Source: Acetomicrobium hydrogeniformans (GTDB lineage Bacteria; Synergistota; Synergistia; Synergistales; JAFGMB01). From it: DNA of 64,000 nucleotides. The DNA lies in the NCBI GenBank assembly GCA_016841745.1, contig JAENYO010000005.1, forward strand, positions 22,439 through 86,438, written 5' to 3'. The position numbers and the translations under genes were made by a program. The notes below the pieces were generated by a model. The model was given only the letters and a program-made list of their open reading frames with translations. It was not told the origin of the DNA and ran no database searches. This document shows, one piece after another, positions 40,090 through 57,884 of this stretch (its first letter is position 1; the number at the start of each line of letters is the position of its first letter).

Positions 40090-41448
40090 CTATTTATCGA
40101 AAAAACTACTGAGATCCTGGCAATTTTCAATAACACGACACTGTTCCAGCAATTGGGCCGCTTTTGACTTCGGCAATTTCAAACTTGCAAGGGACATATA
40201 CTTATTCTCAATTTCCTGATCTGTCATTGTATTCTCAGGATCACCTTTCGGGTATTCAATGAAAGTATTATATATATTGCCCTCTGTCGTTGTTAAAGTG
40301 ATCTTTGAAGCCCACTTCTGTGGGTAGAGCGCAGTCATTTCCTTGCTCACTGACACGTTGATCCGGGGTAAAACCTGGGTAATTACAGGATCAGCTAAAT
40401 ATTTGTCTGCAAACTGCCCTACTCCCACTTCTCCATGGATCAATGCACAGGCTATGCAGTAAAACACACTGAATCTGGCCGCCGGGGAAGTTGTGAAATC
40501 CGTATTCCCAGCAAGTTTCAGAACCATATCATAGGTTTCCACATCTACTTTTTCCACATCCTGGTATGAAAGATCATTGGACTTCATAATTTCAAGGATG
40601 CCGTTAATAGGCCCATGGGTGTGACGGCAGGAAGCATAGGGCTTGTAGACAGTTTCATTTATCCGGAAAAACTTCCCCATATCCTTAAAGCTGTTTTCAA
40701 AATCTTGTTCTTCTGAATAAGCTTCGAAAAAACCTCTATCTCCTTCAAGTATCCTGGTCGCTCCGGTAAAACCCTTTTTTGCCATCAATGATGAAAGAAG
40801 GCCGTTGTAGGCCGCTTTACCACAGTGAAGATACTTGGTCATTGCTTTATCTGCAGCAAATTCCCATAACCCCGCTGCCTGGGAACCGGCATTACCTATT
40901 GAATTTAATGCCTGCTCTGGATCTAGACCCAGTAATTTAGCCGCTGCGGCAGAGGCTCCGAAGGACCCACAGGTAGAAGTAGAGTGCCATATCCTGTAAT
41001 GCGAAGGTGTCACCGCTTCACCTATCCTTATCATTACATCATAACCGGCCACTATGGCTTCGATCAGTTCCTTCCCGGAACTTCCAAGATATTCAGCAAG
41101 GCTGAAGGCGGTAGATATGACCGGTGCGGCAGGATGAACTATAGAACTTTTGTGGACATCGTCCATTTCAAGAATGTGACAGTTATAAGCATTAACCATA
41201 GCAGCCTGCAGAACAGTTCCCTTGTTAAAATCTCCAATAAACGTGGACTGCGATTTTCCTCCCATATCCTCCACAATACTCCTAATGATACGAGAAGCAG
41301 GAGTTGAGGAACCACCAAGGACACAGCCCAGCCAGTCAATAATGCATTTTTTTGTTACTGATACCGTTTCATTATCCAGATCTGAAAATAAAACAGATGG
41401 AATAAATTCAGCACATCGTTTACTTATAGCCTTTTCGTTACTGCTCAT
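40090..41448 (-). CDS. MmgE/PrpD family protein
   Basis: A 452-residue protein with the family signatures IDWLGCVLGGSSTPASRII (residues ~35-55), HILEMDDVHKSSIVHPAAPV (~85-105) and PYASCRHTHGPINGILEI (~280). Members include 2-methylcitrate dehydratase, cis-aconitate decarboxylase and iminodisuccinate epimerase. Propionate-pathway partners are absent, while a fumarase/aspartase-type lyase and fumarases are near, so an epimerase or dehydratase for an (amino)dicarboxylate is favoured. ATG at 41448 has GAAGGAG 8 nt upstream. A degraded second copy is fused to lyase remnants at 44769-45263. It is 48 nt downstream of the flavoprotein gene. Confidence 0.88.
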   Translation of the reverse strand: MSSNEKAISKRCAEFIPSVLFSDLDNETVSVTKKCIIDWLGCVLGGSSTPASRIIRSIVEDMGGKSQSTFIGDFNKGTVLQAAMVNAYNCHILEMDDVHKSSIVHPAAPVISTAFSLAEYLGSSGKELIEAIVAGYDVMIRIGEAVTPSHYRIWHSTSTCGSFGASAAAAKLLGLDPEQALNSIGNAGSQAAGLWEFAADKAMTKYLHCGKAAYNGLLSSLMAKKGFTGATRILEGDRGFFEAYSEEQDFENSFKDMGKFFRINETVYKPYASCRHTHGPINGILEIMKSNDLSYQDVEKVDVETYDMVLKLAGNTDFTTSPAARFSVFYCIACALIHGEVGVGQFADKYLADPVITQVLPRINVSVSKEMTALYPQKWASKITLTTTEGNIYNTFIEYPKGDPENTMTDQEIENKYMSLASLKLPKSKAAQLLEQCRVIENCQDLSSFFDK

Positions 41449-41496
41449 AACAACCACTCCTTCACAACTTTTCTTGAAAATATTTTTCACTCGAAA

Positions 41497-43080
41497 TTAT
41501 TCTTCAAAACTTGTTGAAAGCTTGTTTTCGTTCATCTTCACCAATTGCGATTTCTCAAATCGACTCTCTTCTGAAGGGAAATCTATTCTGCAATGGACTC
41601 CCCTGCTCTCCTGACGAAAAAGAGCCGCGCGGGCAACAGTAAGCGAAGATAACAGCAATCCCTCTATTTCCAATGCTGCAAGGATATCCATAGGTTTCTC
41701 TATTCGCAAGTCGGGCATATTTTCATAGATGGCTTCAAGTTTTGAGAGCGCTTTGGTTAAACCTTTTTCTTTTCTTAAAGGACCAAGGTATTTCTGGACA
41801 ATAGTCTTGATCTCTGTTCTAATTATTCCCGGATCAATACCATTATTGTCAGCACAATTTAAATCTTTTCTCCTCATGAGGGGTAGAGCCTCTATTGATT
41901 GTGAACTTGACGATATTGATGCAGACTGTTTCCCAGCCTTCATTGCAAAGGAAACCACGTTCGAAAGGGCATTTCCTCCGACCCTGCTTGCACCATCCAC
42001 TCCTCCTGTTACCTCTCCACATGCGAAAAGACCATCTATAGAAGTTCTGGCATTTTCATCAATACAGATCCCTCCGCAAAAATAATGCTCCAGAGGACTA
42101 ATATGGATGGGTCCGTAATCCCAGGGTCTGACGCCATGAGGGAAACAGGAAAGTATTTTTCTCTGATCCCATTCATCCCATTTTTTTCTCTGGATATCTT
42201 CCAGATGTAAAAGAACTTTCTTACCTTGAGATATTTTTTCCTGTACAAGCTTTGCCGTTCTGTCCCTGGCATACAGGCTGATCTCTTGTCCGCTATTAAT
42301 CCCCCAGATCTGCATTTGCTCTTTGAGGAATTCAGAATTGTCTTCGTCGGTGACCCTGGCCATATCAATAATTGGTAACCGGACCATCCAGGAAGGGAAA
42401 CCGGGCTCGTCAATTCCAAGGGGATAGAACTGAATAAATTCCATATCAGTAAGGGGTAATCCCGCCTTCAACGCAAGGGCATAACCATCACCTGTTATCC
42501 TTGAAGGGTTATCTGTCCTCTCATATATCTGTCCTGCTCCTCCAGTCGCCAGGATCACCGTCTTGCATTTTATCTGCTCAAAGGTTCCCTTGGTCCAGTC
42601 ACAATACTCGACACCCCATATCCGATTATTTTTTATAAGGATTTCAGTTACATAAACATTATCTAATAAACTTACTCCCTTTTTTATCGCCAGTGTCTTT
42701 AATTCTGAAATGAAGCCTCCTCCACTGACAATAGGGTTTGTTGATGAATCTCTGACGGTAGCATGACCATCTTTAAGAAATCTTAGAGTAATACCCCAGG
42801 ACTCTAGCTCCTTTAGAGCAGAATAAGCCTCTTTGCCCAGAGATTCTACTAATTTACCGTTATTTACGTTTCTGCCAACATTTGTCGTTTTATCTATATA
42901 ACTGTCAACACTTAGCTCTCCATCTGCAAAGGTGAAGTAACCGCTTGAATAAGCGGTTGACGATGCTGTCCCCACCGGAGTTTTGCTCATGATGGTCACA
43001 GAAGCGCCCTTTTTCAAGGCAGAAATGGCAGAAATCAGACCTGCTCCTCCTGAACCGATCACTATCACGTCAGTATTCAT
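41497..43080 (-). CDS. Soluble FAD-dependent dicarboxylate oxidoreductase (FrdA/NadB-like)
   Basis: A 527-residue flavoprotein of the succinate dehydrogenase/fumarate reductase/L-aspartate oxidase superfamily. The FAD-binding start is DVIVIGSGGAGLISAISALKKG; ILATGGAGQIYERTDNPSRITGDG, PLEHYFCGGICIDENARTSI and GLFACGEVTGGVDGASRVGG are present with the conserved His and Arg regions. A C-terminal helical domain is present (to ~500). There is no signal peptide and no iron-sulfur or membrane subunit gene nearby, as in NadB-type enzymes. It probably oxidises an amino-dicarboxylate or reduces fumarate in the cytoplasm. Substrate cannot be set from sequence alone. Confidence 0.87.
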   Translation of the reverse strand: MNTDVIVIGSGGAGLISAISALKKGASVTIMSKTPVGTASSTAYSSGYFTFADGELSVDSYIDKTTNVGRNVNNGKLVESLGKEAYSALKELESWGITLRFLKDGHATVRDSSTNPIVSGGGFISELKTLAIKKGVSLLDNVYVTEILIKNNRIWGVEYCDWTKGTFEQIKCKTVILATGGAGQIYERTDNPSRITGDGYALALKAGLPLTDMEFIQFYPLGIDEPGFPSWMVRLPIIDMARVTDEDNSEFLKEQMQIWGINSGQEISLYARDRTAKLVQEKISQGKKVLLHLEDIQRKKWDEWDQRKILSCFPHGVRPWDYGPIHISPLEHYFCGGICIDENARTSIDGLFACGEVTGGVDGASRVGGNALSNVVSFAMKAGKQSASISSSSQSIEALPLMRRKDLNCADNNGIDPGIIRTEIKTIVQKYLGPLRKEKGLTKALSKLEAIYENMPDLRIEKPMDILAALEIEGLLLSSLTVARAALFRQESRGVHCRIDFPSEESRFEKSQLVKMNENKLSTSFEE

Positions 43081-43312: not shown

Positions 43313-44677
43313 CTACATCGGGGTCTTATTCAAAACATGATCGATACATGCATCAGTAAGCCCTAAATAATTTTCCGGATTGAGTACCTCATTAAGCTCT
43401 TCTTGAGTAAAGTACTTCTTAATACCTGGAAAATGAAGAACGTATTCATTAAAAGCAGTTCCTTTTTCATATGCTTCCATGGCTGCCATATGGATAATAT
43501 GATGAGCAGTCTCTTTTTTTCCTGTTTTCTTTGTAAGCGCGATCATTAAAGCCTCTGTCATAACAAGCCCGTTTGACTGTTCCAGATTTCGCCTCATTGC
43601 CTGGGTATGTACAACTAGATTTTCAAAAATAAAGTTAGCATTATTTAGCACCAGCTTTACCAGAACACATGTTTCAGGAATGATAAGATCTTCCATATAA
43701 AAACCAGTAATATCATGGGCTTCTTTCATGTGAGTATCAGTAAAAGCATATGCATTTGACCTGATTTTCTTGCACCAGGCCTGAATAGCCTCTAATCTTA
43801 CAGGATTCCTTTTTTGAGGCATTGTACTGGAACCGATCTGAGAAGATGAATCGAAGGGCTCTTCCAATTCTCCAATCTCATTTCTTTGCTGATTCATAAC
43901 ATCATCAGCAATTTTTTCAAAAGTCATAGCCAACAATGTAAACAGGGTCATCAATTCTCCCAGTCTTTCCATATGTCTACGGAGATTGATCGGATTGCTT
44001 TCAAGCCCTAACCGATCCAGAACCATTTTTTCCATCTCCAGACATTTGCTACCTGAAATGGCATAATGAGAAGAATAATTCCCCACTGCTCCTTTTATTG
44101 TGCCTTTCAATATCCTTTTCCTGGATTCCCGGAATCGTTCAACATGCCTGGAAATCTCATCTGACCATGTCGCAACGATAAAACCAAAGGTGGTAGGAAG
44201 AGCCTGTTGTCCATGGGATCTGTCAACCATCATTGTTTTTCTATGTTTCTTAGCCAGCTGATTCAATGTCCTCTGAAGTTTAAGCAAGTCATTTTCATAT
44301 ATCTCCATTGCCTTTTTAATTCTGTAGGCCAAAGTATTTTCAAATAATTCTGGCGTACAAGAACCATAATGAAGATATTCGCCAGCATTGTTTTCGCATA
44401 CTTCAGCCAAAGCTCGAATTGTAGCAACGCTGGCAAGTTTGGTTTTAGAATATAGTTCGGCAATTCTATGCATTTTGACATATTCCAGACTTGCCTTAGA
44501 CGAAATTTCTTTTGCTGCATCCTTTGGAATAATGCCTAACTCCGCTTGTACTTCCGCAAGCGTTGCTTCGAATAATAACCAACTCTCCACAACTTTTGTT
44601 TCGTCAAAGACATCTCGTATTTCTTTGGCATCATAATCACTGTTGAATATTATGCTGTCTATAATATTTACAGCCAT
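43313..44677 (-). CDS. Fumarase/aspartase-superfamily lyase (adenylosuccinate lyase / CMLE-like)
   Basis: A 454-residue lyase. It has the three conserved regions: KTKLASVATIRALAE ... HYGSCTPELFENTLAYR (C1, ~80-115), MVDRSHGQQALPTTFGF (C2, ~150) and the catalytic loop SSSQIGSSTMPQKRNPVRLE (C3, ~285). Members split succinyl adducts by beta-elimination to release fumarate or cyclise carboxymuconate. It is not the purine enzyme by context: no pur genes are near, while fumarases and malic enzyme are. Iminodisuccinate and related aminopolycarboxylate lyases belong to this superfamily, so a C-N lyase acting on an N-substituted aspartate is likely. ATG at 44677 has AAAGGGG 8 nt upstream. Confidence 0.88.
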   Translation of the reverse strand: MAVNIIDSIIFNSDYDAKEIRDVFDETKVVESWLLFEATLAEVQAELGIIPKDAAKEISSKASLEYVKMHRIAELYSKTKLASVATIRALAEVCENNAGEYLHYGSCTPELFENTLAYRIKKAMEIYENDLLKLQRTLNQLAKKHRKTMMVDRSHGQQALPTTFGFIVATWSDEISRHVERFRESRKRILKGTIKGAVGNYSSHYAISGSKCLEMEKMVLDRLGLESNPINLRRHMERLGELMTLFTLLAMTFEKIADDVMNQQRNEIGELEEPFDSSSQIGSSTMPQKRNPVRLEAIQAWCKKIRSNAYAFTDTHMKEAHDITGFYMEDLIIPETCVLVKLVLNNANFIFENLVVHTQAMRRNLEQSNGLVMTEALMIALTKKTGKKETAHHIIHMAAMEAYEKGTAFNEYVLHFPGIKKYFTQEELNEVLNPENYLGLTDACIDHVLNKTPM

Positions 44678-44768
44678 CAATAAAACCCCTTTCAAATACT
44701 CCATGTCTTCTCTAGAATCAGCTGAATTCTGTCAAGAAGTGCAATTCTAAAATGTCTGCAAAGAAATA

Positions 44769-45263
44769 CTAGATATCTTTGATAATGACTATGTTTTTGC
44801 ACTTTTTCAATAATGTTTCAGCTTCTTCTGATTCTTTCAATGTTGAAAGTTCCATAAATTCATTGTCTATTTCTTTGTTATTTAAGGGGTTTTCAGGACT
44901 TCCTTTAGAGAAAAGGAGCTGTATTTGGAAATATGTTGTTTTCAGTATTGATAGTAATCCGAGATATCCATTTCTCAGGATAGAGGTTGTCAGTTTCAGG
45001 ATCGACAGTTGTGTTAATTTTCTTTGTTATTTCCCTGACCTGTGGCTTCTCAACAAAAGGAATAAACGGATGTCTGGTGACAGCTATCCAATCTCTGGTT
45101 TCATTAAGATCTATGTGCTCAAGTTTCGCCTTTGAAATATTTCCAAGGCCGCTTCTACATCAAACCATTTTTGAACCATGTTCTTATCACTGATAATTCG
45201 TCGTAAATCTTCAGTTCCGAAAAGATGAGAGAATAAATTGCTATCATTTATATATGTAGCCAT
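44769..45263 (-). pseudogene. Fused remnants: 5' end of a second lyase joined to 3' end of a second MmgE/PrpD gene
   Basis: Starts MATYINDSNLFSHLFGTEDL with a good GAGAGG site. DKNMVQKWFDVEAALE and, after a frameshift near 45,140, AKLEHIDLNETRDWIAVTRH then PFIPFV are the N-terminus of a fumarase/aspartase-type lyase. The same frame continues VREITKKINTTVDPETDNLY then PEKWISRITI, which is the C-terminal part of MmgE/PrpD (compare TALYPQKWASKITLTTTEG in the intact copy). A second frameshift leads into KGSPENPLNNKEIDNEFMEL. A deletion therefore joined the two genes and at least two frameshifts followed. Confidence 0.85.
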
Positions 45264-45299: not shown

Positions 45300-46460
45300 T
45301 TATCCCTGGACAAACACCGTAATTATCAGTTTGGTATATATAACCATGCAGAGAAGGGCAATAGGATAGGTGGCACCATATCCAGATCCGCATTCTTCGC
45401 CGCCAGTGGCATCAATGGCTACACCTAAGCCTGGCGTACTTGTCATGGCGCCGCATACTGCTCCGGCAAGAAGTATCCAGTTAAGCTTGAACAGATAACG
45501 CCCTACTAAAAAGGTAACCACCTCCGAACAAATGGCTGCGGAGAAACCGATCCCGATGAGAATGTGACCACTTTCTGCGAAGGTTTCAATAAGTTTTGGC
45601 CCTGCCATCAGTCCCACAGTTGCCAGAAAATATGCCAGGGATAAAGATCTAAGTGCTACCAGTGTTTTCTGCTCCATTCGCATGGGAAAGGGACCTATAT
45701 TGCCAATAGCACCAAAGACTAGGGCAATTATCAAAGCCCCTCCGGTAGTACCCAGGGATATTGAACCCAGATGGGGAATATTAATAGACATCTTTCCAAA
45801 TGCTATACCCGCCACGATACACAGGACAAAAGAAACAAGAGAAAAGGGGACCGAAGCAATTTTGTTCTCGGAGGTATCAATGCCAGGCGAATTATTGAAG
45901 ATCTTTTTCAGTTCCCGTTTTTCATGGTCAACGTCAATATGAAAAATGGATGGAACCAGCTGGACAAATAACACTACCGCAATAACTCCAATTGGATAGG
46001 TGACAGTATAGCCAATTGTCACCATGGCATTAGCGTTCGTGGCTTCAAGAGCTGCCCCAAGACCAGGAGAACTGGTTAGAGCACCTGTATATGAACCTGC
46101 TAAGAGAAAAGGGGACATGCCGGAAGGCAAGAATCTGGCAAATAACAGAATAATCATTGCACCAACCGATGTTGCAACAATACCAAGAATAATGAATTTT
46201 AATCCAAACTTACGGACTACAACGACAATATCCTTTGCAGAAATAAGTCCTACTGCTATGACGAAAAGAACAAGATTCCAGGAAAAATAACTGTAGGGTA
46301 CCTTGAAACCTATTAGACCCAGGATAAGACCGGTGAAAAGGGTCCCGGATATTCCCAGACTGATTCCTTTTACTTGTATCTGACCGATCAAAAGACCTGA
46401 AAGGACCGCAATACTGAGAATAAAAACATCGTTTTTAAATATTTCCGCCAGGTATGACAA
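45300..46460 (-). CDS. AspT/YidE-type membrane permease
   Basis: A 386-residue polytopic membrane protein with about ten hydrophobic segments and an internal duplication: LLAGSYTGALTSSPGLGAAL in the first half and LLAGAVCGAMTSTPGLGVAI in the second. The (G)A-x-TS-x-PGL motif is the hallmark of the aspartate:alanine exchanger family. The central TrkA-C domains of AspT are missing, giving a short form. TTG at 46460 is preferred because GGAGG is 6 nt upstream. Located between the lyase/PrpD genes and malic enzyme, it may exchange an amino or dicarboxylic acid against a decarboxylated or split product. Confidence 0.82.
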   Translation of the reverse strand: MSYLAEIFKNDVFILSIAVLSGLLIGQIQVKGISLGISGTLFTGLILGLIGFKVPYSYFSWNLVLFVIAVGLISAKDIVVVVRKFGLKFIILGIVATSVGAMIILLFARFLPSGMSPFLLAGSYTGALTSSPGLGAALEATNANAMVTIGYTVTYPIGVIAVVLFVQLVPSIFHIDVDHEKRELKKIFNNSPGIDTSENKIASVPFSLVSFVLCIVAGIAFGKMSINIPHLGSISLGTTGGALIIALVFGAIGNIGPFPMRMEQKTLVALRSLSLAYFLATVGLMAGPKLIETFAESGHILIGIGFSAAICSEVVTFLVGRYLFKLNWILLAGAVCGAMTSTPGLGVAIDATGGEECGSGYGATYPIALLCMVIYTKLIITVFVQG

Positions 46461-46572
46461 GATCTTCCTCCATGCATATATAATAAAGGTTTTTGACTTC
46501 AACTACGGATAACAGTATTAAATACTTAAAAAGATATAGAAGGAAATATCTCGATCTTTCAAGGATCGTACT

Positions 46573-46630: not shown

Positions 46631-47962
46631 TTATTCAGGAAGTTTAATAAATTTATTGTCGGTCAGGCACTGTGTCATATTATGTGCATACTCTATCTTT
46701 TCCGTTGCCATGGCATGCAGTTCTTCCCTGGTCATGGTTTTTCTGGCTACACCCTGCTCGATAGCCTTCATACCCACTGCTGTTGCCACTTCCGGATAAA
46801 CCCAGGCTTCATCCATTGTGGGGATGAGATAGTCTTCAGAAAGGCCCTTCTTCTCTGCACATTTAGAGAGAGTCTGAGCGGCTGCAATGCACATTTCATC
46901 TGTAATAGTTGTAGCCTGAACATCAAGGGTTCCACGGAAAATACCGGGGAAACCAAGAGAATTGTTAACCTGGTTCGGGAAGTCAGATCTTCCGGTCGCG
47001 ACTATCCTTGCTCCAGCTTCCTTGGCATCCCAGGGCCAGATCTCAGGAATAGGATTAGCACATGCAAAAAGAATAGCATCTTTGGCCATGCTGGCAACCC
47101 ATTCTTTTTTGACCACATCAGGACCTGGCCTGGTGTAACAGTAAACAACATCTGCATCCTTGAAGACGGCTTCAGGACCACCTTCAACACATGCAGGATT
47201 AGTGATCTGGGCAAAATGCCATTTCACGGCAAATTTATCTTTAAGATCAGTCCTACCCTTGTGGAGGGTTCCCTTGCTGTCTGCCATGATAACATTCTCC
47301 GGCTTGACTCCAGCACTGATAAGTATCCTGGCGGTGGCTATTGTGGCTGCGCCTGCTCCCAGGAAATGGACCTTCACTTCATCGATCTTCTTACCTACGA
47401 TCTTCAGTCCACTGAATAATCCAGCAAGGTTAACCGCTGCTGTTCCCTGCTGATCATCATGCCAGACAGGGATCTTGCAGTCTTTTCTCAGCTCATCAAG
47501 CACATGGAAACATTTGGGCTGGGAAATATCTTCCAGATTGATACCGCCAAAACTTGGGGCAAGGAGACGTACGGTTTCAATTATCTTCTCCGGATCCTTG
47601 GTGTCAAGGCATATGGCCACTGCATCTACGCCACCAAGATATTTGAAAAGGAGGGCTTTACCTTCCATTACCGGCATACCCGCTTCAGGGCCGATATCTC
47701 CAAGACCGAGAACTCTTGTACCGTCGCTTACTACGGCTACAGTATTTGCCCTGTTCGTGTATTCATAGGACAATTCAATATCTTCCTTTATAGCCTTACA
47801 TGGTGCGGCAACACCTGGGGTATACCAGATGGCAAAGTCCTTGACATCTCTTACACAGCATTTAAGTGCAGTCTGCATCTTACCCTTATAAAAGGGATGA
47901 AGCTTCATTGCATCCTCTGCAGGTTTTTTCGCTTTTGCGATAAGTTCTTCTTTGCTAAGCAT
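46631..47962 (-). CDS. maeB: Malic enzyme, NAD(P)-dependent
   Basis: A 443-residue decarboxylating malate dehydrogenase making pyruvate, CO2 and NAD(P)H. Visible features: IWYTPGVAAPCKAI, VLGLGDIGPEAGMPVMEGKALLF (in two parts of the malate site), PVWHDDQQGTAAVNLAG, the nucleotide-binding GAGAATIATARIL (~195) and FACANPIPEIWP. It is the short bacterial form without a phosphotransacetylase domain. It is last in the gntR-fumarase-fumC-mae set and would take malate from the fumarases onward. AAGGAGG precedes the ATG. Cofactor preference (NAD or NADP) is not determined. Confidence 0.95.
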   Translation of the reverse strand: MLSKEELIAKAKKPAEDAMKLHPFYKGKMQTALKCCVRDVKDFAIWYTPGVAAPCKAIKEDIELSYEYTNRANTVAVVSDGTRVLGLGDIGPEAGMPVMEGKALLFKYLGGVDAVAICLDTKDPEKIIETVRLLAPSFGGINLEDISQPKCFHVLDELRKDCKIPVWHDDQQGTAAVNLAGLFSGLKIVGKKIDEVKVHFLGAGAATIATARILISAGVKPENVIMADSKGTLHKGRTDLKDKFAVKWHFAQITNPACVEGGPEAVFKDADVVYCYTRPGPDVVKKEWVASMAKDAILFACANPIPEIWPWDAKEAGARIVATGRSDFPNQVNNSLGFPGIFRGTLDVQATTITDEMCIAAAQTLSKCAEKKGLSEDYLIPTMDEAWVYPEVATAVGMKAIEQGVARKTMTREELHAMATEKIEYAHNMTQCLTDNKFIKLPE

Positions 47963-48014: not shown

Positions 48015-49409
48015 CTACTTAACTTTTACGGTCTTTGGTGCGCACATGGACTTAAGGTCCATATATTTTTCAAACTCTTCTTCAGAGAGGTAACCAAGTG
48101 CCATGGCCGCTGCCTTAAGAGTAGAACCATCCTTATGAGCTTTCTTGGCGATCTCGGCAGATTTATCATAACCGATGTAAGGATTAAGAGCCGTTACATT
48201 CATCAAAGAATTGCTTACAAGATCATTGATCCTTGCTTCGTTGGCTTCAAGGCCTGCTGCACATTTCTCATTAAAAGCCTTCATGCAATCAGCAAGAAGA
48301 CGGGCCGACTGGATGAAATTGAATATCAACACGGGCATATAGACATTAAGCTCGAAGTTTCCCTGACTGGCAGCGAAACCTACAGTTACATCATTACCCA
48401 TAACCTGTGCAACTACCATCGAAACCGCTTCGCACTGGGTCGGATTGATCTTTCCAGGCATAATTGAACTTCCAGGCTCATTTGCAGGAATGGTAAGCTC
48501 TCCAAGGCTGCATCTTGGTCCAGCAGCAAGCCATCTGATATCATTAACGATCTTCAGAAGATCTGCAGCAAGGGCTTTAAGTGCACCATGTGCAAATACA
48601 AGCTCATCTTTGCTGGTCAATGAATGGAATTTATTGGGAGCAGTTTTGAAGTTCTTGCCTGTAATACCAGCTATCTGGGCGGCTACTTCCACGTCAAATC
48701 CTACTGCAGCATTCAGACCGGTACCAGTTGCAGTTCCACCGAGTCCGAGGTCTCTCAGATACTCCAGACTTGAAAGGATCATTTCTTCACAACGCTCAAG
48801 CATCCGGACCCATCCGCTGATCTCCTGACCAAGAGTCAGAGGAGTTGCATCCTGAAGGTGGGTCCTACCGGTCTTTACAAGATCCATATACTGCGCAGAT
48901 TTTTTGGCAAGAGTATTTTTGAACTCACGAAGAGCAGGAAGAACGCTGTCTTCAAGCAATAGTACCGCGGTAATATGCATGGCGGTGGGGAAAGTATCAT
49001 TTGAACTCTGAGATTTATTGACATGGTTATTTGGATGAACTTTGTTATCAGCATCGTTAAGGATCTGATTAGCCCTGTTGGCAAAAACCTCATTAACGTT
49101 CATGTTAGACTGGGTGCCGCTTCCGGTCTGCCATACAGCCAGTCCGAAGTTGCCATCAAGTTTACCCTCAAGGGTTTCATCTGCTGCCTGTGTGATAGCC
49201 TTCATTCTTACATCATCAAGAACACCAAGCTTGTTATTAGCCAGAGCTGCAGCTTTCTTGAGAACTGCAAAAGCTTCAATGACCTCTTTCGGCATTTTTT
49301 CGATACCGATGGGGAAATTGTCAATGCTTCGCTGAGACTGTGCACCATATAATTTGTCGGCAGGTACTTTAACCTCTCCAAGTGAATCTTTTTCAATCCT
49401 GTATTCCAT
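48015..49409 (-). CDS. fumC: Class II fumarate hydratase
   Basis: A 464-residue fumarase. Signatures: QTGSGTQSNMNVNEVFANRA (fumarase form; aspartases have GAGTSTNMN here), VKTGRTHLQDATPLTLGQE and the catalytic GSSIMPGKINPTQCEA. It interconverts fumarate and malate without a metal cluster. AAGGAGG lies before the ATG. It is between the class I fumarase and malic enzyme genes, all in the same direction with short gaps, so likely in one operon. Having both fumarase types side by side is unusual. Confidence 0.95.
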   Translation of the reverse strand: MEYRIEKDSLGEVKVPADKLYGAQSQRSIDNFPIGIEKMPKEVIEAFAVLKKAAALANNKLGVLDDVRMKAITQAADETLEGKLDGNFGLAVWQTGSGTQSNMNVNEVFANRANQILNDADNKVHPNNHVNKSQSSNDTFPTAMHITAVLLLEDSVLPALREFKNTLAKKSAQYMDLVKTGRTHLQDATPLTLGQEISGWVRMLERCEEMILSSLEYLRDLGLGGTATGTGLNAAVGFDVEVAAQIAGITGKNFKTAPNKFHSLTSKDELVFAHGALKALAADLLKIVNDIRWLAAGPRCSLGELTIPANEPGSSIMPGKINPTQCEAVSMVVAQVMGNDVTVGFAASQGNFELNVYMPVLIFNFIQSARLLADCMKAFNEKCAAGLEANEARINDLVSNSLMNVTALNPYIGYDKSAEIAKKAHKDGSTLKAAAMALGYLSEEEFEKYMDLKSMCAPKTVKVK

Positions 49410-49457: not shown

Positions 49458-50045
49458 CTAGCCATATAGCTCTTTATTGCGGTTGTTAGCTTTTTCTGCC
49501 AATTCTTTGTAAACGCTTCTTCCGTGTGAGTCCATGCCAACAACAAGGGGTCCAAACTTTGTTGCCTGCAGAATCCACATGGCCTCAGGAACACCAAGCT
49601 CAAGCCAGTACACATCTTCAATATGGGATATGCCATCAGCAAGTACCACAGCACAACCGGGAGCTGCCTGAAGATAAACCTGTCCGGTTTCCTCAAACTG
49701 TTTAAGGCTGTCTTCTGCAAGACCGCCCTTACCAATAATGGCTCGAACTCCCAGGTCCGCCATCATTTTATAGTAGGGCTCCATTCGTATACTGGTGGTA
49801 GGACCGATGACTACAAGGTCATACTTCCCATCATCTCTTTTGCTTACAACCGGACCTGCATGGAAAATAGCAGAACCATCAAAATCGACCGGAAGTTCTT
49901 TTTTCTCTTCCAGAAAGTTTTTAATTGTGAAATGTCCCATATCTCTTGATGTATATACAGGGCCCTTAAGGTAAACAACGTCGCCAACTCTAAGATCTCT
50001 GATCTCTTCTTCTTTTAAAGGTACGGACAATAATTTTTCGGCCAT
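49458..50045 (-). CDS. fumB: Class I fumarase / tartrate dehydratase beta subunit
   Basis: A 195-residue subunit with GDVVYLKGPVYTSRDMGHFT, AIFHAGPVVSKRD and IGPTTSIRMEPYYKMMADLG, the C-terminal domain pattern of Fe-S hydro-lyases. ATG at 50045 has AGGAGG 8 nt upstream. It is 12 nt downstream of the alpha subunit gene. Fumarate is the likely substrate given neighbouring fumC and malic enzyme, but L-tartrate cannot be excluded by sequence reading. Confidence 0.93.
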   Translation of the reverse strand: MAEKLLSVPLKEEEIRDLRVGDVVYLKGPVYTSRDMGHFTIKNFLEEKKELPVDFDGSAIFHAGPVVSKRDDGKYDLVVIGPTTSIRMEPYYKMMADLGVRAIIGKGGLAEDSLKQFEETGQVYLQAAPGCAVVLADGISHIEDVYWLELGVPEAMWILQATKFGPLVVGMDSHGRSVYKELAEKANNRNKELYG

Positions 50046-50057
50046 ATCATACACCTC

Positions 50058-50948
50058 CTATAGGGTAGTTTCTTTTCTCCCATCGGGATACAATCTTATT
50101 CCTGTCCTTCTGGCAGTCCAGCAATGGAAACTTATTGCAGCGGGAGCAATAGCTGTATGAGTTGAAGTAGCTCCTATCTTTACTGCAAGCATGGTGGTAT
50201 CTCCGCCGGTTCCTGCTGCGCCTAAACCAAGACTATTGATATTTTCAAGAAGTTCCTGCTCGAGTTCAGCATACATTGGGTCGGGATTAACATCATCCCA
50301 GCGACGTGTGCTTACGGCCTTTCTGGCAAGCTTACAGGCCACATCCATCTGTCCGCCCAATCCGATACCGATAGCTCCTGGAGGGCAGGGTTTGCCGCCG
50401 CCTTTAATTACAGTGTCCAGAACCCATCTTTTAAGTCCGGCAAAATCGTTCCCTTTTTCAAGTTGTGCTACAGTAAATATCTTCATGGCATTAGCGAGTT
50501 CTGCACCACAGCCTTTAAAACTCAAAAACATCTCCATATATTCCTGTTCCGGGACATAATCAAATTCAAAGTTAGGCACACCAATTCCAGAATTATCACC
50601 AGGGTTTTTCCTGGTAAGGGGGTGGACCATACTTGGACGAAGAAGATGATTCTTTGTTCCTTCGATAAGGGCTTCTGCCCATATTTTCTTGAGGTCCTCA
50701 CCGGGCACAGATTTGTCTCCAAAACTTACATATACCGTTGGGAAACCGGGAGACTGACACACAGGCTTAACCTTTTCTCCTGCCATCTTTGCGTCATCGA
50801 GCATAGCCTGCATGATACTCTTAGCAGTCTGGTTTGTTTCCCTTTTCAGCGCTTTCTGCATTATGTCTGTGACATCGGGTGAAATAGTGGTAGTAGAGTG
50901 ATAGATCATGTCGTACACATGCTTATATAGATCCTGATACATTGCCAA
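50058..50948 (-). CDS. fumA: Class I fumarase / tartrate dehydratase alpha subunit (4Fe-4S)
   Basis: A 296-residue catalytic subunit carrying the oxygen-labile 4Fe-4S cluster; candidate ligands are Cys in KPVCQSPGFP (~63), FKGCGAELANAM (~150) and GKPCPPGAIGIGLGG (~192). It hydrates fumarate to S-malate in the cytoplasm with the beta subunit. A TTG start at 50948 is used since AAGGAGG lies 8 nt upstream. It is 22 nt downstream of the GntR regulator and clearly in its operon. An Fe-S fumarase fits an anaerobic host. Confidence 0.93.
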   Translation of the reverse strand: MAMYQDLYKHVYDMIYHSTTTISPDVTDIMQKALKRETNQTAKSIMQAMLDDAKMAGEKVKPVCQSPGFPTVYVSFGDKSVPGEDLKKIWAEALIEGTKNHLLRPSMVHPLTRKNPGDNSGIGVPNFEFDYVPEQEYMEMFLSFKGCGAELANAMKIFTVAQLEKGNDFAGLKRWVLDTVIKGGGKPCPPGAIGIGLGGQMDVACKLARKAVSTRRWDDVNPDPMYAELEQELLENINSLGLGAAGTGGDTTMLAVKIGATSTHTAIAPAAISFHCWTARRTGIRLYPDGRKETTL

Positions 50949-50970: not shown

Positions 50971-51699
50971 TTAAATTTCTTCCAAATTTAGGATCTTAGA
51001 TCCGTATTTGTCAGCCAGCACTTTTTCAAGATTACTTTTCACACTTTCAAGATGCTCTTTCATGAATTGAGAAGCGGCGTCGGAATTACCTTCCTTGATA
51101 GAGTTGAGGATCTTTTTGTGCTCTGCCAGAGAAAAGCCAGGTCTCGAAGGTATATTGAAAGTTAGATGGGTACTTCTTTCAATAAGATTTATGACCATAT
51201 TCGTAATAGAAGATAAGATTATGTTACTTATGGAACTGACGATCTCATGATGAAACCTGATAGAACCTTCAACACCGGATCCTCCATTCACTATTTCTTC
51301 TTCCGCAGTTAATAGTGATTCTTCCATTCTCCTTATGCTTTCTTTACTTGCCTCCCTTGCTGCATAACTCACAACAACAGGTTCAAGAACTTCTCTTGTC
51401 TGCATCAGATATTCAAACTCTGTACTCTGATCATTTATAAGCCTGGCCATAGTTTCCTTGATAAACCCGATGTTAGGCTCCAGAACAACACTACCCTTAC
51501 CCTGCCTGGTCTCGATTATTCCAGCAATTTCCAGGATCCGGAGTGCTTCTCTGACGGTAGTCCTGCTTACGGCCAATCTTTTTGCGATTTGTGGTTCGGA
51601 GGGAAGCATATCACCTGGATTCAATCCCTCCCTTTCGATAAGTTTTTTGATCTCCCTGACAGCATCTTCAGACAACCTTTTCGTTTTAAGCCTTTGCAT
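50971..51699 (-). CDS. GntR-family regulator, FadR subgroup
   Basis: A 242-residue regulator. The N-terminal winged helix has LPSEPQIAKRLAVSRTTVREALRILE (~37-62, read in two parts) and the wing GIIETRQGKGSVV. The all-helical FCD C-terminal domain (~95-225) has metal/ligand-type residues in FHHEIVSSI and SLAEHKKILNSI. FCD regulators sense organic acids and many control catabolic operons next to them. It is the first gene of the fumarase-malic enzyme operon and probably regulates it and itself. GGTGG lies 9 nt before the ATG. Effector not known; a C4-dicarboxylate is likely. Confidence 0.92.
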   Translation of the reverse strand: MQRLKTKRLSEDAVREIKKLIEREGLNPGDMLPSEPQIAKRLAVSRTTVREALRILEIAGIIETRQGKGSVVLEPNIGFIKETMARLINDQSTEFEYLMQTREVLEPVVVSYAAREASKESIRRMEESLLTAEEEIVNGGSGVEGSIRFHHEIVSSISNIILSSITNMVINLIERSTHLTFNIPSRPGFSLAEHKKILNSIKEGNSDAASQFMKEHLESVKSNLEKVLADKYGSKILNLEEI

Positions 51700-51946: not shown

Positions 51947-53227
51947 TTACATTAACAGATCCGGCAGGAACATGGCGATCTTCGGGAAAAAAGTAAGTAG
52001 CAATAAGCCAACTACAAGCATAGTTATAATCGGAATAACCTGTTTTATAAGTTTGGTCATCGGTACTTCGCATATTCGGGAAGATACATAAAGGGTCAAC
52101 GCTACCGGAGGAGTTACAAGTCCTATGGCAAGGTTAGTCACCATCAAGGCTCCAAAATACACGGGATCGATGTTATATGCGTGAGCAGCCGGCAACAGCA
52201 ACGGAGCAAAAAGGATTATGGCAGGGGAAGGATCCATAAGCATTCCAGCAACAAGGATAATGGCATCGGCAATAAGAAGGAACCCGATAGGACTGGTGAT
52301 ATTTTCCAGGATCATCTTTGTAAGATTCTGAGGGATCTGTTCCCTGACAAGAACCCAACCGAAAAGGACTACACCTCCGACCACGAACATAATGGTAGCT
52401 GAGGAAATTCCACTTTTAAGGAATATCTCAGGTAAATCCTTGAACGTGAGGGTCCGGTAGATAAAAAGGCCTACGACCATGCTGTAAACAGCAGCAACGG
52501 CGGCTGCTTCAGTTGGAGTAAAAATACCTGAATAAATCCCGCCAACAATGATAACAGGGGTCAACAGAGCCCAGAAAGCCTTTCTTGAGCTCACGAGAAC
52601 ATGCTTCAAGCTAAAACTGGAGATACCACCATAGTTTCTTTTATTTGAAATCCAGTACCCGTAAGCTATTATCATCAGTCCAAAAAGAACCCCGGGACCA
52701 ACTCCTGATAACAGAAGTGAGCCGATCGAGGTATCAGTGGCTGCGCCAAAAACAACCATGGGTATACTGGGAGGAATAAGAATACCCAGTGGACCGGCAG
52801 ATGCTATGATAGCCGCAATAAAACTTTTATCGTATCCGGAACGCTCTGATTCGGGAGCAACCACAGACCCGATAGCTGAAGCGGTAGCGGCACCTGAACC
52901 GGAAACAGCACCGAAAAACATACAGGCCACGGTTGTAACGCTTGCAAGACCGCCCTTAAAGTGGCCAACCATGCTGTTCGCCATATCTATCAACAGTTTG
53001 GACGCCTTTCCGGAACACAGCAAATCCCCAGACAGGATAAACAAGGGTATTGCCAACATGGAAAAAGAATTCATTCCGGCAAAAAAACGAGGTGCAGTGA
53101 TGGATATCATAAAGAAGTCGCCCGTAAGGAACAGATAAAATACGGAGGAAAGACACATGCTCATAGCTATGGGCACATTGAGAAACAGCATGCCAAAGAA
53201 AGCTATAGCAAAAAGAGATATATCCAT
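51947..53227 (-). CDS. dctM: TRAP transporter large membrane subunit (DctM)
   Basis: A 426-residue polytopic protein with about 12 membrane helices. Typical segments: FFGAVSGSGAATASAIGSVV, GPLGILIPPSIPMVVFG, GVGPGVLFGLMI, GIFTPTEAAAVAAVYS and LAIGLVTPPVALTLYV. It couples Na+ entry to uptake of the substrate delivered by DctP. ATG at 53227 overlaps the dctQ stop as TAATG. It is the last gene of dctPQM and the only DctM in the window, so it may also serve the orphan DctP. Confidence 0.95.
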   Translation of the reverse strand: MDISLFAIAFFGMLFLNVPIAMSMCLSSVFYLFLTGDFFMISITAPRFFAGMNSFSMLAIPLFILSGDLLCSGKASKLLIDMANSMVGHFKGGLASVTTVACMFFGAVSGSGAATASAIGSVVAPESERSGYDKSFIAAIIASAGPLGILIPPSIPMVVFGAATDTSIGSLLLSGVGPGVLFGLMIIAYGYWISNKRNYGGISSFSLKHVLVSSRKAFWALLTPVIIVGGIYSGIFTPTEAAAVAAVYSMVVGLFIYRTLTFKDLPEIFLKSGISSATIMFVVGGVVLFGWVLVREQIPQNLTKMILENITSPIGFLLIADAIILVAGMLMDPSPAIILFAPLLLPAAHAYNIDPVYFGALMVTNLAIGLVTPPVALTLYVSSRICEVPMTKLIKQVIPIITMLVVGLLLLTFFPKIAMFLPDLLM

Positions 53228-53715
53228 TAGCAACCACCTCTTAATATTTTGACCTGTTCAAACATTTGGCCAATACTGATAATAAACATCATGAAACCTG
53301 TAATTGGTACGGCTGAATAAATTATGGCAAGAGGAAAAGGTCCGAATTCACAACCAACTCCCATATTGGCCATCATGTATCCATAGCCTGTGGTAGTCAG
53401 GATAACTGTAAAGATTATTACAAATACCGATGCGATCAGATTAATGATATTCTTTGTTTTTTCAGATTTTCTGGTTTCGACGAGAATATCTACTGATAAA
53501 TGGCATTTCATTTTCAATGCCTTGATAGAACCATACAAAGATGCCCAAACAAAATTATATCTGGCCATTTCTTCCGTCCAGGCAGCAGGAATATGAAGTA
53601 AAAATCGATTTACGACCTGGAAAAAAACCATCGCAACGAGCGAAAACATCAGAATCGTGATAAGAATGTCTACAACCTTCATCATCTTCGCATCTAGTCT
53701 TGCGAGTGCTTCCAA
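53227..53715 (-). CDS. dctQ: TRAP transporter small membrane subunit (DctQ)
   Basis: A 162-residue protein with four predicted membrane helices and the DctQ pattern WTEEMARYNFVWASLYGSIKALKMKCHLSVD (read in parts at residues ~40-70). It is required with DctM for transport. Start TTG follows GGGGGTGG. Separated from dctP by a strong hairpin. Confidence 0.92.
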   Translation of the reverse strand: MEALARLDAKMMKVVDILITILMFSLVAMVFFQVVNRFLLHIPAAWTEEMARYNFVWASLYGSIKALKMKCHLSVDILVETRKSEKTKNIINLIASVFVIIFTVILTTTGYGYMMANMGVGCEFGPFPLAIIYSAVPITGFMMFIISIGQMFEQVKILRGGC

Positions 53716-53737
53716 AACACCACCCCCAAAATTGAGA

Positions 53738-53775
53738 GCAACGGTTGCGGTTTGAATTCTGACCGCAACCGTTGC
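53738..53775 (-). terminator. Strong hairpin between dctP and dctQ
   Basis: A perfect 14-bp GC-rich stem GCAACGGTTGCGGT / ACCGCAACCGTTGC with a 10-nt loop, between the dctP stop and dctQ start. No T run follows, so it is more likely an mRNA-stabilising or attenuating hairpin that raises binding-protein level over membrane subunits. Confidence 0.8.
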
Positions 53776-53790
53776 GAATAACTCTATACT

Positions 53791-54786
53791 CTATTTATTT
53801 GACAATGCCTTTATCTGATCGATTGTTTCCTTCCACTCGGGATGCTTGTCGTACATGGGCATCATTGCTGCTCTCCAGACCTGTCTGTCGGGTTCATAAT
53901 AGTTCATGCCGTTATCTTTAAGGAACTGGGTATCGACAACGTCTGCCTCTTCAGCAATTTTTCTCTGCCATACAGCTGCTTCATGAGCAGATTCCTCAAG
54001 GATCTTCTGATCCTCTTCAGAGAAAGAATAGAATTTCTTGGCACTCATGAGAACAGGCTCAAGAAGGAATGCCATGTGATTGGCACAGGTATAATTTGCT
54101 ACTTCGAAATGCTTGCTCTTACGAACATTAATGGGACCCTGGATCTCTGCATCAACAGCTCCAAGCTGAAGTGCTGAGTAAACTTCTCCGAATGCCATGG
54201 GAGTAACAACGGCTCCGAGCATCTCTCCGGTTTCAACGAAAACTGCGGAGGGCTGGACCCTGAGTTTTACACCCTTCATATCTTCCGGAGACTTCACAGG
54301 AATACGTGAAACGATATTGTAAAGACCATTATTGAAGACGGTCAGAACCTTGATCCCCTTGTTCTCGACGGGTTTAAAAACTTTCTTACCTATCTCACCA
54401 TCGATTACTGTCCAGGTATGTTCCCAGTCATCAAAAATAAAGGGCAGACAGATTACACCGGCATCAGGATCATATCCTTCAAGAATACCCTGCCAGACAA
54501 GGCAGGCATCCAGTTGACCAGCCGCTACCATTTCAGCAAGCTGTTTCTGTTTACCTAACTGGCCGCTTGGATATACAACGACTTCTATTCTTCCGTTGGT
54601 TCTTTCCTTGACAAGTTCACCAAACTTCACAGAACCCAGATGGTATGGGTGGTTCTCCGGCATTTCGTGAGCAACACGAAGCTTGACAGTCTTAGCATCT
54701 GCTGGTACTGGAGCAAAAGCTGATACCACCAATAAAGCAAGACAAAGCACACCAATTACAGCAATTCCCTTTTTCAAAATCCTCAT
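53791..54786 (-). CDS. dctP: TRAP transporter solute-binding protein (DctP)
   Basis: A 331-residue binding protein with a signal peptide ending about residue 31 (PVPADA-KTVKLRVAHEMPE). Key segments: HPYHLGSVKFGELVKERTNG, YPSGQLGKQKQLAEMVAAGQ, the carboxylate-binding Arg in GVKLRVQPSAVFVETG and GAVDAEIQGPINVRKSKH, where most family members have GQENP. This change is shared with the orphan DctP at 37618, implying a similar, perhaps unusual ligand. First gene of dctPQM, with a conserved motif 127 nt upstream. AGAGGAGGG precedes the ATG. Confidence 0.95.
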   Translation of the reverse strand: MRILKKGIAVIGVLCLALLVVSAFAPVPADAKTVKLRVAHEMPENHPYHLGSVKFGELVKERTNGRIEVVVYPSGQLGKQKQLAEMVAAGQLDACLVWQGILEGYDPDAGVICLPFIFDDWEHTWTVIDGEIGKKVFKPVENKGIKVLTVFNNGLYNIVSRIPVKSPEDMKGVKLRVQPSAVFVETGEMLGAVVTPMAFGEVYSALQLGAVDAEIQGPINVRKSKHFEVANYTCANHMAFLLEPVLMSAKKFYSFSEEDQKILEESAHEAAVWQRKIAEEADVVDTQFLKDNGMNYYEPDRQVWRAAMMPMYDKHPEWKETIDQIKALSNK

Positions 54787-55618: not shown

Positions 55619-56305
55619 CTATTTTAAAAACTGATATCTGCTGACAGGCCTTCCGATTTCCTGATAATGCAATTCTTCAACTAATTTCCCAGCATTCAGC
55701 ATATATTTTACATATCTCATTACAGTAACTCTTGATAAACTGGTTAACAACGCAACCTGTTCAACAGACACCGGGTCAGACTCATTCTTGAAAACATCAA
55801 TAATGTTCTCCAAAGTCTGTTTCTGAATCCCCTTAGGCAAAACATCGGGAACTACTGATGTCATACCGGGGCGAATAACATTATCTATCTCTTCCTGACT
55901 GAATGTTCTTTCTCTTTTATTATGGATCGTTTCAAAATGTTTCAGAAAAGAATTCATTGTTTTCTTGAACCGCGAGAAATCGAAAGGTTTAAGAAGATAA
56001 TCAAAAACTCCAAGTCTGACCGCCTCCTGTACCAGATCCCCCTCTTGAGCAGCTGTTATCATTATTACATCCAGATCAGTTCTGGTTTCCCGGATCTTGT
56101 GCAAAACCCCAAAACCATCCACCTCAGGCATGAAAATATCCAGTATGACCAGGTTAACATCAAGAGTCTCCAGAAGAGTTAGGGCTTCCTGACCTGTTCT
56201 GGCAATTCCAATTACCTCAAATCCATCAATAACTGATACAAAACGCCTGTGAAGATCTGCAACGGTCGGATCGTCATCAACAATCAATACTTGTATTTTC
56301 TTCAC
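55619..56305 (-). CDS. Response regulator, CitB/DcuR (MaeR) family
   Basis: A 228-residue response regulator. Receiver domain: QVLIVDDDPTVADLHRRFV, phosphoacceptor Asp in NLVILDIFMPEVDGFG (~53), ITAAQEGD and the Lys in FDYLLKPFDF. A linker and a C-terminal HTH (VEQVALLTSLSRVTVMRYVK) follow, the CitB/DcuR/MaeR layout for C4-dicarboxylate or citrate control. A GTG start at 56305 (AAGG 8 nt upstream) overlaps the kinase gene by 29 nt. It probably activates the TRAP and fumarate-malate genes in response to an external acid. Confidence 0.93.
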   Translation of the reverse strand: MKKIQVLIVDDDPTVADLHRRFVSVIDGFEVIGIARTGQEALTLLETLDVNLVILDIFMPEVDGFGVLHKIRETRTDLDVIMITAAQEGDLVQEAVRLGVFDYLLKPFDFSRFKKTMNSFLKHFETIHNKRERTFSQEEIDNVIRPGMTSVVPDVLPKGIQKQTLENIIDVFKNESDPVSVEQVALLTSLSRVTVMRYVKYMLNAGKLVEELHYQEIGRPVSRYQFLK

Positions 56306-57884
56306 AAAAATCACCTTCCGGGATAGAGAGGTATATAGTTGTCCCTTTGCCAGGACTCGAATCAATCTTAATTTTACCATTCAAAGAATCAGTGAGAGAT
56401 TTGACGAGAAAAAGACCGTAACCTCTTTTACCACCCGTTTTAGTCGTAAACCCTTTCTCAAAGAGCTTTTCTCTCGCATCTTCTGTAATACCTGAACCAT
56501 TATCATTGATGGAAATATCCATACCTGTATTTGACCCCTTCATAGTGAGTGTTATTCTCTTATTTGCACTTTCACTCTCCAGGACTGCTTCCATTGAATT
56601 TTCGATCAGGTTACCAAGGCAAACCAGGATCGAGTTTATATCAATCCCTTCCAGTAAACCCAAAGAACTCTCCTCTGTTAGAACAAGCAGTATTCCTAAT
56701 TCCCTGCATCTGCCTATCTTTCCTAAGAGCAATCCCGCAATTGAAGAATTCTGTATTCTTTTCATTACAAACTCGATCATTTCCTGCTGAACATTCGATT
56801 CATTATTCATGAAACTGATGGCATCTTCATAGTCTCCAATCTGTACCAGGCCTGAGATTGTATGAAGTTTATTTAAAAAATCGTGTTTTTGTACCCTGAG
56901 AGCTTCATTTTGAACCCTGAGGACCTCAGCCATTTTCTTCGCCCCCGTCAACTCTTCTGCCAAAAGCTGCATTTCATCTATATTTCTGAAACTCGCGATA
57001 GCTCCATATACCTGGCCATCAACTTTAATAGGAATTCTGTTGGTTATGATCTTCAAATTGATTACGCTCTGTTCCTGGTCATACTGAGCTTTTCCCGTTC
57101 GAATGACCTCCATAAGTTTTGAATTTGGAACAAAATTTGTCACGTCCTTGTTCTCAACCGGATCATTCTCACCTATACCAAGCATTTTTCTGGCCTGTTT
57201 ATTCATAAAAACAATTTTTCCTTCTTTATCTGCAGCCACTATACCCTCCTTGACTGATTCAAGAAGGGCCTCCCTCTCCCTGAGCAGAGATGCTAATTGA
57301 TATGGTTCCATTCCGAACATGGAGTTTTTTATATTTTTTGCAAGAAAGTGGGCACAGATTATTCCGATCAGAAGACCCAGCACTATTGCAAAAATAATCT
57401 TCTTCCTCAAGCTCCATATCAATAGATTGATATCGCGTGTCCACAGGTAGACAGCAATTGCCCCGACATGTTCCTCTTGTCTATATACAGGAACATACGC
57501 TCTAAGGGTAGGCCCAAGGGTTGTCACTTCCGGATAGGATGAATAAGGGATCCCCTCTATAACTGGACCAGCTTTGCTGCCAATGGCCAGGATATATTTC
57601 ACTTCAGCTTTTTTCCTTATCTCTTCCACTATGGGCTGAACGATCTGGTCACCGTCAGGCCAGTCAATATATTTCTTGATATCGGGGATCCCTGCTACAG
57701 AATAGGCAATGTCCCTCGCATAGGAAGCAAGTTGGTCCTGAAATTTCAAGACCATGAATCTTTCTATCAAAATACCTGCAACTATCAAAGTAAGCACTAT
57801 AATTGTTACGATAAGCAACATGAACTTATATTGAATAGGGAAAGATTTTCTCTGGGTAAACCCGATCTGGAGCACCTCCTCCAA
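56277..57884 (-). CDS. Sensor histidine kinase, CitA/DcuS (MaeK) family
   Basis: A 535-residue membrane sensor. Membrane helices near residues 22-42 and 160-182 flank an extracytoplasmic PDC-type ligand domain containing TLGPTLRAYVPVYRQEEHVGAI. A PAS domain follows (LLESVKEGIVAADKEGKIVFMN, ~208-230), then the phosphoacceptor His in RVQKHDFLNKLHTISGLVQ and an ATPase domain (LGNLIENSMEAVLE, DNGSGITEDAREKLFEKGFTT, KRGYGLFLVKSL). This is the citrate/C4-dicarboxylate sensor layout. The start is uncertain: a TTG at 57884 lies in a purine-rich GGAGGAGGTG stretch. It forms an operon with the regulator. Confidence 0.92.
   Translation of the reverse strand: MEEVLQIGFTQRKSFPIQYKFMLLIVTIIVLTLIVAGILIERFMVLKFQDQLASYARDIAYSVAGIPDIKKYIDWPDGDQIVQPIVEEIRKKAEVKYILAIGSKAGPVIEGIPYSSYPEVTTLGPTLRAYVPVYRQEEHVGAIAVYLWTRDINLLIWSLRKKIIFAIVLGLLIGIICAHFLAKNIKNSMFGMEPYQLASLLREREALLESVKEGIVAADKEGKIVFMNKQARKMLGIGENDPVENKDVTNFVPNSKLMEVIRTGKAQYDQEQSVINLKIITNRIPIKVDGQVYGAIASFRNIDEMQLLAEELTGAKKMAEVLRVQNEALRVQKHDFLNKLHTISGLVQIGDYEDAISFMNNESNVQQEMIEFVMKRIQNSSIAGLLLGKIGRCRELGILLVLTEESSLGLLEGIDINSILVCLGNLIENSMEAVLESESANKRITLTMKGSNTGMDISINDNGSGITEDAREKLFEKGFTTKTGGKRGYGLFLVKSLTDSLNGKIKIDSSPGKGTTIYLSIPEGDFCEENTSIDC

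Follow-up and report, generated by a model that had tools for sequence, protein, structure and literature searches.

Iminodisuccinate epimerase, a protein of the MmgE/PrpD fold (PDB 2hp0/2hp3) for which H99 and Y145 have been proposed as catalytic bases (PMC7347537), is, among proteins of solved structure, the best match to the intact PrpD protein described here (4.6e-51). It has been reported that both an epimerase and a C-N lyase are required for the breakdown of iminodisuccinate in Agrobacterium tumefaciens BY6 (Cokesa et al. 2004, as cited in PMC7347537), and that the known MmgE/PrpD substrates all contain a C4 dicarboxylate core (PMC12290011). The present locus resembles the BY6 system in that an MmgE/PrpD protein is paired with a lyase, the sequence comparison covering the PrpD side only. 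The intact PrpD protein is distant from iminodisuccinate epimerase (phmmer, 177 bits over 432 residues), and both bases are present in the alignment, H99 as H119 and Y145 as Y165. Unlike the BY6 system, the cluster also contains a flavoprotein, fumarases, malic enzyme and TRAP and AspT-like transporters, and unlike iminodisuccinate epimerase and its lyase, the gene remnant in this cluster is devoid of any catalytic part. The lyases belong to the Fumarase/PurB superfamily, which includes PurB, 3-carboxymuconate cycloisomerase, the 3-sulfopropionylcysteine synthase XcbD and the trans-aconitate decarboxylase Tad1, and whose N-terminal motif is found in the remnant. As in this superfamily, the intact lyases carry the GSSxMPxKxN loop, and that of the window has the Lyase_1 and ADSL_C domains. 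When they were compared with the PurB, cycloisomerase, XcbD and Tad1 models of NCBIfam, however, the intact lyases scored below the curated cut-offs, except those of the relatives G046 and G017, which pass the purB model and yet are separate from the PurB proteins of their own genomes.

The window, which is the whole stretch of 64,000 nucleotides that was analysed, contains the following features, given in the direction of transcription.

51947..54786, minus strand, TRAP transporter (DctM, DctQ, DctP); relatives adjoin the lyase in G046
50971..51699, minus strand, GntR/FCD regulator; relatives adjoin the lyase in G046, G017 and G039
49458..50948, minus strand, class I fumarase / tartrate dehydratase-type subunits (Pfam Fumerase and Fumerase_C)
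48015..49409, minus strand, class II fumarase (FumC-like), identified by its sequence
46631..47962, minus strand, malic enzyme
45300..46502, minus strand, AspT/YidE-type aspartate:alanine-exchanger-like permease, the nearest upstream gene, ending 36 bp before the remnant
45132..45263, minus strand, lyase remnant, first 44 residues (MATYINDSNLFSHLFGTEDLRRIISDKNMVQKWFDVEAALE...), 57% identity to the G046/G017 lyases, HMM 39.4 bits
45052..45138, minus strand, lyase remnant, residues about 63-91 (ISKAKLEHIDLNETRDWIAVTRHPFIPFV), in another frame than the first piece
45051..45052, minus strand, hybrid junction, from lyase residue about 91 to PrpD residue about 361-364, in frame
44929..45051, minus strand, PrpD remnant, residues about 364-407 in the numbering of the intact PrpD, tblastn 39%, HMM 25.0 bits
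44769..44912, minus strand, PrpD remnant, C-terminus (SPENPLNNKEIDNEFMELSTLK...CKNIVIIKDI and stop), shifted frame, HMM 28.5 bits, Pfam MmgE_PrpD_C
43313..44704, minus strand, intact lyase (Lyase_1 and ADSL_C), which belongs to a divergent subfamily and did not give rise to the remnant, beginning 64 bp downstream of it
41497..43080, minus strand, intact FAD flavoprotein (fumarate reductase / L-aspartate oxidase-like), between lyase and PrpD
40090..41490, minus strand, intact MmgE/PrpD protein, related to iminodisuccinate epimerase and keeping both bases

With these genes on both sides and on the same strand, the remnant lies inside an operon-like run of C4-dicarboxylate genes. Homologues of the class II fumarase, 87% (G042) and 69% (G066) identical, are likewise located inside PrpD clusters.

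The initial annotation described 44769-45263 as the N-terminus of a lyase followed by the C-terminus of an MmgE/PrpD protein, with frameshifts, and all of the peptides it quoted were located on the minus strand within this region. The remnant starts exactly at an ATG and ends at a TAG, yet it occupies more than one frame. When we searched it with tblastn, the G046 lyase matched 45263-45132 with 57% identity (residues 5-48), and the lyases of the relatives gave a second match at 45138-45052 (38%, residues 63-91), with a joint E of 6e-13 for the G046 lyase. On the PrpD side, 45057-44929 was 39% identical to residues 364-407 of the intact PrpD and 44912-44742 matched residues 413-470 of the G017 PrpD, with joint E values down to 6e-11. 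The HMM scores of the real sequence were 39.4 and 9.2 bits for the lyase and 28.5 and 25.0 bits for PrpD, while none of 1000 dinucleotide shuffles exceeded 4.9 bits for the lyase or 5.7 bits for PrpD, and a score of any kind was obtained for only 341 and 265 of them, respectively. In addition, the PrpD part, with its pieces joined by X, scored 35.5 bits with Pfam MmgE_PrpD_C against a curated cut-off of 32.1, and the lyase part matched NCBIfam lyase models (6e-6); Pfam Lyase_1 gave no match to the 41-aa lyase piece. Because tblastn, profile scores far above those of the shuffles, Pfam and NCBIfam agree, the homology to two families with defined breakpoints is real, and the description of the two ends is confirmed, coordinates included.

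The lyase part comprises about 91 residues of the N-terminus of a Fumarase/PurB-superfamily protein (45263-45052, minus strand), and its two pieces differ in frame, a short stretch of roughly 15-20 codons having been deleted between them. The homology switches at FIPFV/EKPQV, the hybrid junction, where the frame is unchanged and where the lyase has lost about 350 residues and PrpD about 360, together with anything that lay in between. The PrpD part covers the C-terminal ~105 residues of an MmgE/PrpD protein and contains one further small deletion with a frameshift, so that its tail is shifted once more before the stop at 44769. Two families are joined here, each truncated relative to its intact homologues, and no complete ORF is present, as in a fusion or deletion pseudogene; the change of homology and the truncation of both halves support the earlier proposal of a hybrid pseudogene formed by deletion. 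Like ordinary internal-deletion pseudogenes, it fuses two gene ends, carries frameshifts and is expected to give no product, the only difference being that its two halves come from the same linked gene set. It is an ordinary pseudogene, a case of routine gene decay in an interesting cluster, and most likely does nothing.

We then compared the two halves with their homologues. It had been suggested that gene duplication was followed by loss; the data agree that each family has lost a second member here, but a recent duplication of the intact pair is not supported. In a recent tandem duplication, one of two copies of the intact lyase-flavoprotein-PrpD set would have collapsed by deletion, and the remnant does lie directly beside the intact set, in the same order and on the same strand, with a PrpD part from the same clade as the intact PrpD. 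However, several results argue against this origin. First, across the 70 residues that can be compared, the lyase half shares 50% identity with the G046 lyase and 44-46% with those of G017/G039 but only 26% with its intact neighbour, which, unlike in a tandem duplicate, is not its closest relative; against 90 lyases, the top three were those of G046, G017 and G039. Second, grouping of the remnant lyase and its intact neighbour as sisters was rejected (p-AU 0.029), a modest rejection since it is one of five such tests. Grouping with the G046/G017/G039 lyases was allowed (p 0.33) but received no positive support from the tree, and the plain tree did not resolve the exact sister, as the lyase piece is short. 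Third, the PrpD half stands at the base of the clade containing the intact PrpD (support 96/91), and its placement as direct sister of the intact PrpD was worse by 14.8 lnL (p 0.09), so that only an old duplication is allowed. Based on these observations, a recent tandem duplication is unlikely, and we suggest that the dead pair most likely derives from an older, different set of old paralogues rather than from a fresh copy of the intact pair. The intact lyase itself is an outlier, with 26-32% identity to the other PrpD-linked lyases over the columns comparable with the remnant. Its relatives carry TTQDxxDT, SSRDT and ERDxR motifs, none of which it has, but the catalytic-serine loop GSSTMPxKRN is kept, and its long branch may perhaps reflect a changed substrate or activity.

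Here, we need to consider that the assembly is a draft of 15 contigs, in which distant pieces might have been misjoined or a frame broken by sequencing errors. Such an artefact is quite improbable, as a misjoin would produce a single junction, whereas two further small deletions, separate from each other and accompanied by frameshifts, are found here; moreover, the remnant sits tightly between two intact genes, and no second copy of its parts was found elsewhere in the 3.04-Mb genome. Least credible of all is a short functional hybrid peptide, possibly expressed from the about 80 codons that stay open across the junction, because the minus strand at the remnant has no ORF of at least 60 aa that begins at a usual start codon, the ATG that opens the lyase piece is out of frame with these codons, neither enzyme retains its catalytic loops, and a DNA search of 60 relatives recovered only the remnant itself and no counterpart. 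No further lyase, PrpD or flavoprotein remnants were found within the window.

The deletion pseudogene also bears on the former arrangement of the lost genes, which had been taken to lie side by side, lyase first. If the two ends were joined by deletion, without an inversion, an original order of lyase then PrpD on the same strand is implied, and this part of the claim stands. Adjacency, on the other hand, does not follow, since in G046, the source of the lyase most similar to the remnant, the same order extends across 6.3 kb, an interval occupied by TRAP genes, a C_GCAxxG_C_C-type protein and a flavoprotein. In the intact set of the window, the lyase and PrpD are 1.8 kb apart with the flavoprotein in between; the order is reversed in G017/G039, where ~5.5 kb separate PrpD from the lyase; and in contig 5 of the same genome, G066 and G074, the two are direct neighbours with PrpD first. 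An intact lyase directly followed by PrpD was not seen among the loci of the taxonomic order examined. Nor was an intact parental lyase-PrpD pair, anticipated at the place of the remnant, found in relatives; in G001, the one genome of the same family that was covered, a TRAP gene precedes flavoprotein-PrpD, and neither a lyase nor a remnant is present on the 4.8-kb contig. The second intact pair of the same genome, on contig 5 (L053, 11333-15348), has a malic-enzyme-like gene directly upstream, and a similar arrangement occurs in G066, with a class II fumarase in between, and in G074, on a short contig without the upstream part.

With the G046 lyase as query, a search of the order (183 genomes) gave seven non-PurB lyase loci (E 4e-83 or better), PurB-like genes following at E 1.5e-69 or worse, and PrpD was located within 6.3 kb at 7/7 of them. 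These are not seven independent events, because several are orthologous to each other. The gap between PrpD and the lyase was 16-54 bp at three of the seven, two of which have malic enzyme alongside, and malic enzyme or fumarase genes are present at several of the seven. Among 80 more distant loci from all prokaryotes, four had a PrpD gene at a distance of up to about 8 kb, all of them among the 21 loci listed first, mostly the most similar; the comparison of 4/21 first-listed loci with 0/59 of the rest gave a Fisher p of 0.004, computed on non-independent loci and with a split picked after seeing the data. A scan of the genome contigs with the divergent intact lyase as query found no relatives. 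The functional linkage of lyase and PrpD is real, and the initial annotation was right on this point by virtue of the intact loci rather than the remnant itself. Checking the remnant thus showed that a non-PurB lyase and MmgE/PrpD are consistently linked in one bacterial order, which offers a testable function for a large MmgE/PrpD family, most members of which are uncharacterised (PMC12290011), in a type of dicarboxylic-acid gene cluster that is little studied. Outside this order, Mesosutterella porci has a convergent lyase and PrpD as neighbours (L062, 7893-10999).

Based on these results, we propose the following history. An older canonical PrpD-linked lyase, as in G046 and G017, would once have stood in the run of fumarase, malic enzyme and permease genes, followed by a PrpD gene belonging to the clade of the intact PrpD. 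A large deletion from lyase codon ~91 to PrpD codon ~361, seen in the change of homology, fused both genes, two small deletions with frameshifts also hit the remnant, and the product would be no working enzyme. Its living counterpart is the neighbouring lyase-flavoprotein-PrpD set, in which, judging from the families and gene neighbours, PrpD most likely epimerises a substituted succinate and the lyase most likely cleaves it to fumarate and a small leaving molecule; fumarase and malic enzyme would carry fumarate via malate to pyruvate, and their presence alongside is consistent with fumarate as the predicted product. By analogy, the intact pair probably acts like the iminodisuccinate epimerase and C-N lyase of A. 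tumefaciens BY6. An N-substituted aspartate is the leading guess for the substrate; the leaving group may be an amine, a thiol or another group. We hold with considerable confidence to this account as a whole, a dead lyase-PrpD remnant beside a living set that would epimerise and then cleave. Only tentatively do we suggest that the cluster might represent an uncharacterised anaerobic route in which PrpD epimerises and the lyase cleaves a substituted succinate, and that this genome formerly had, at the present locus, separate sets for two substrates, in addition to the set on contig 5, and has lost one.

A two-component system (sensor kinase and response regulator) is encoded at 55619-57884 and is possibly the regulator of the cluster; its relatives lie near PrpD in G017 and G033, and a relative of the response regulator is also present in G039. 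In-frame stops in some PrpD and flavoprotein genes of the relatives were considered as recoding, but none falls inside the tblastn matches, so that they are end effects. Finally, three MmgE/PrpD genes stand in a row in G009 (L156, 8-3842), and double or triple arrays occur in other genomes of the order.
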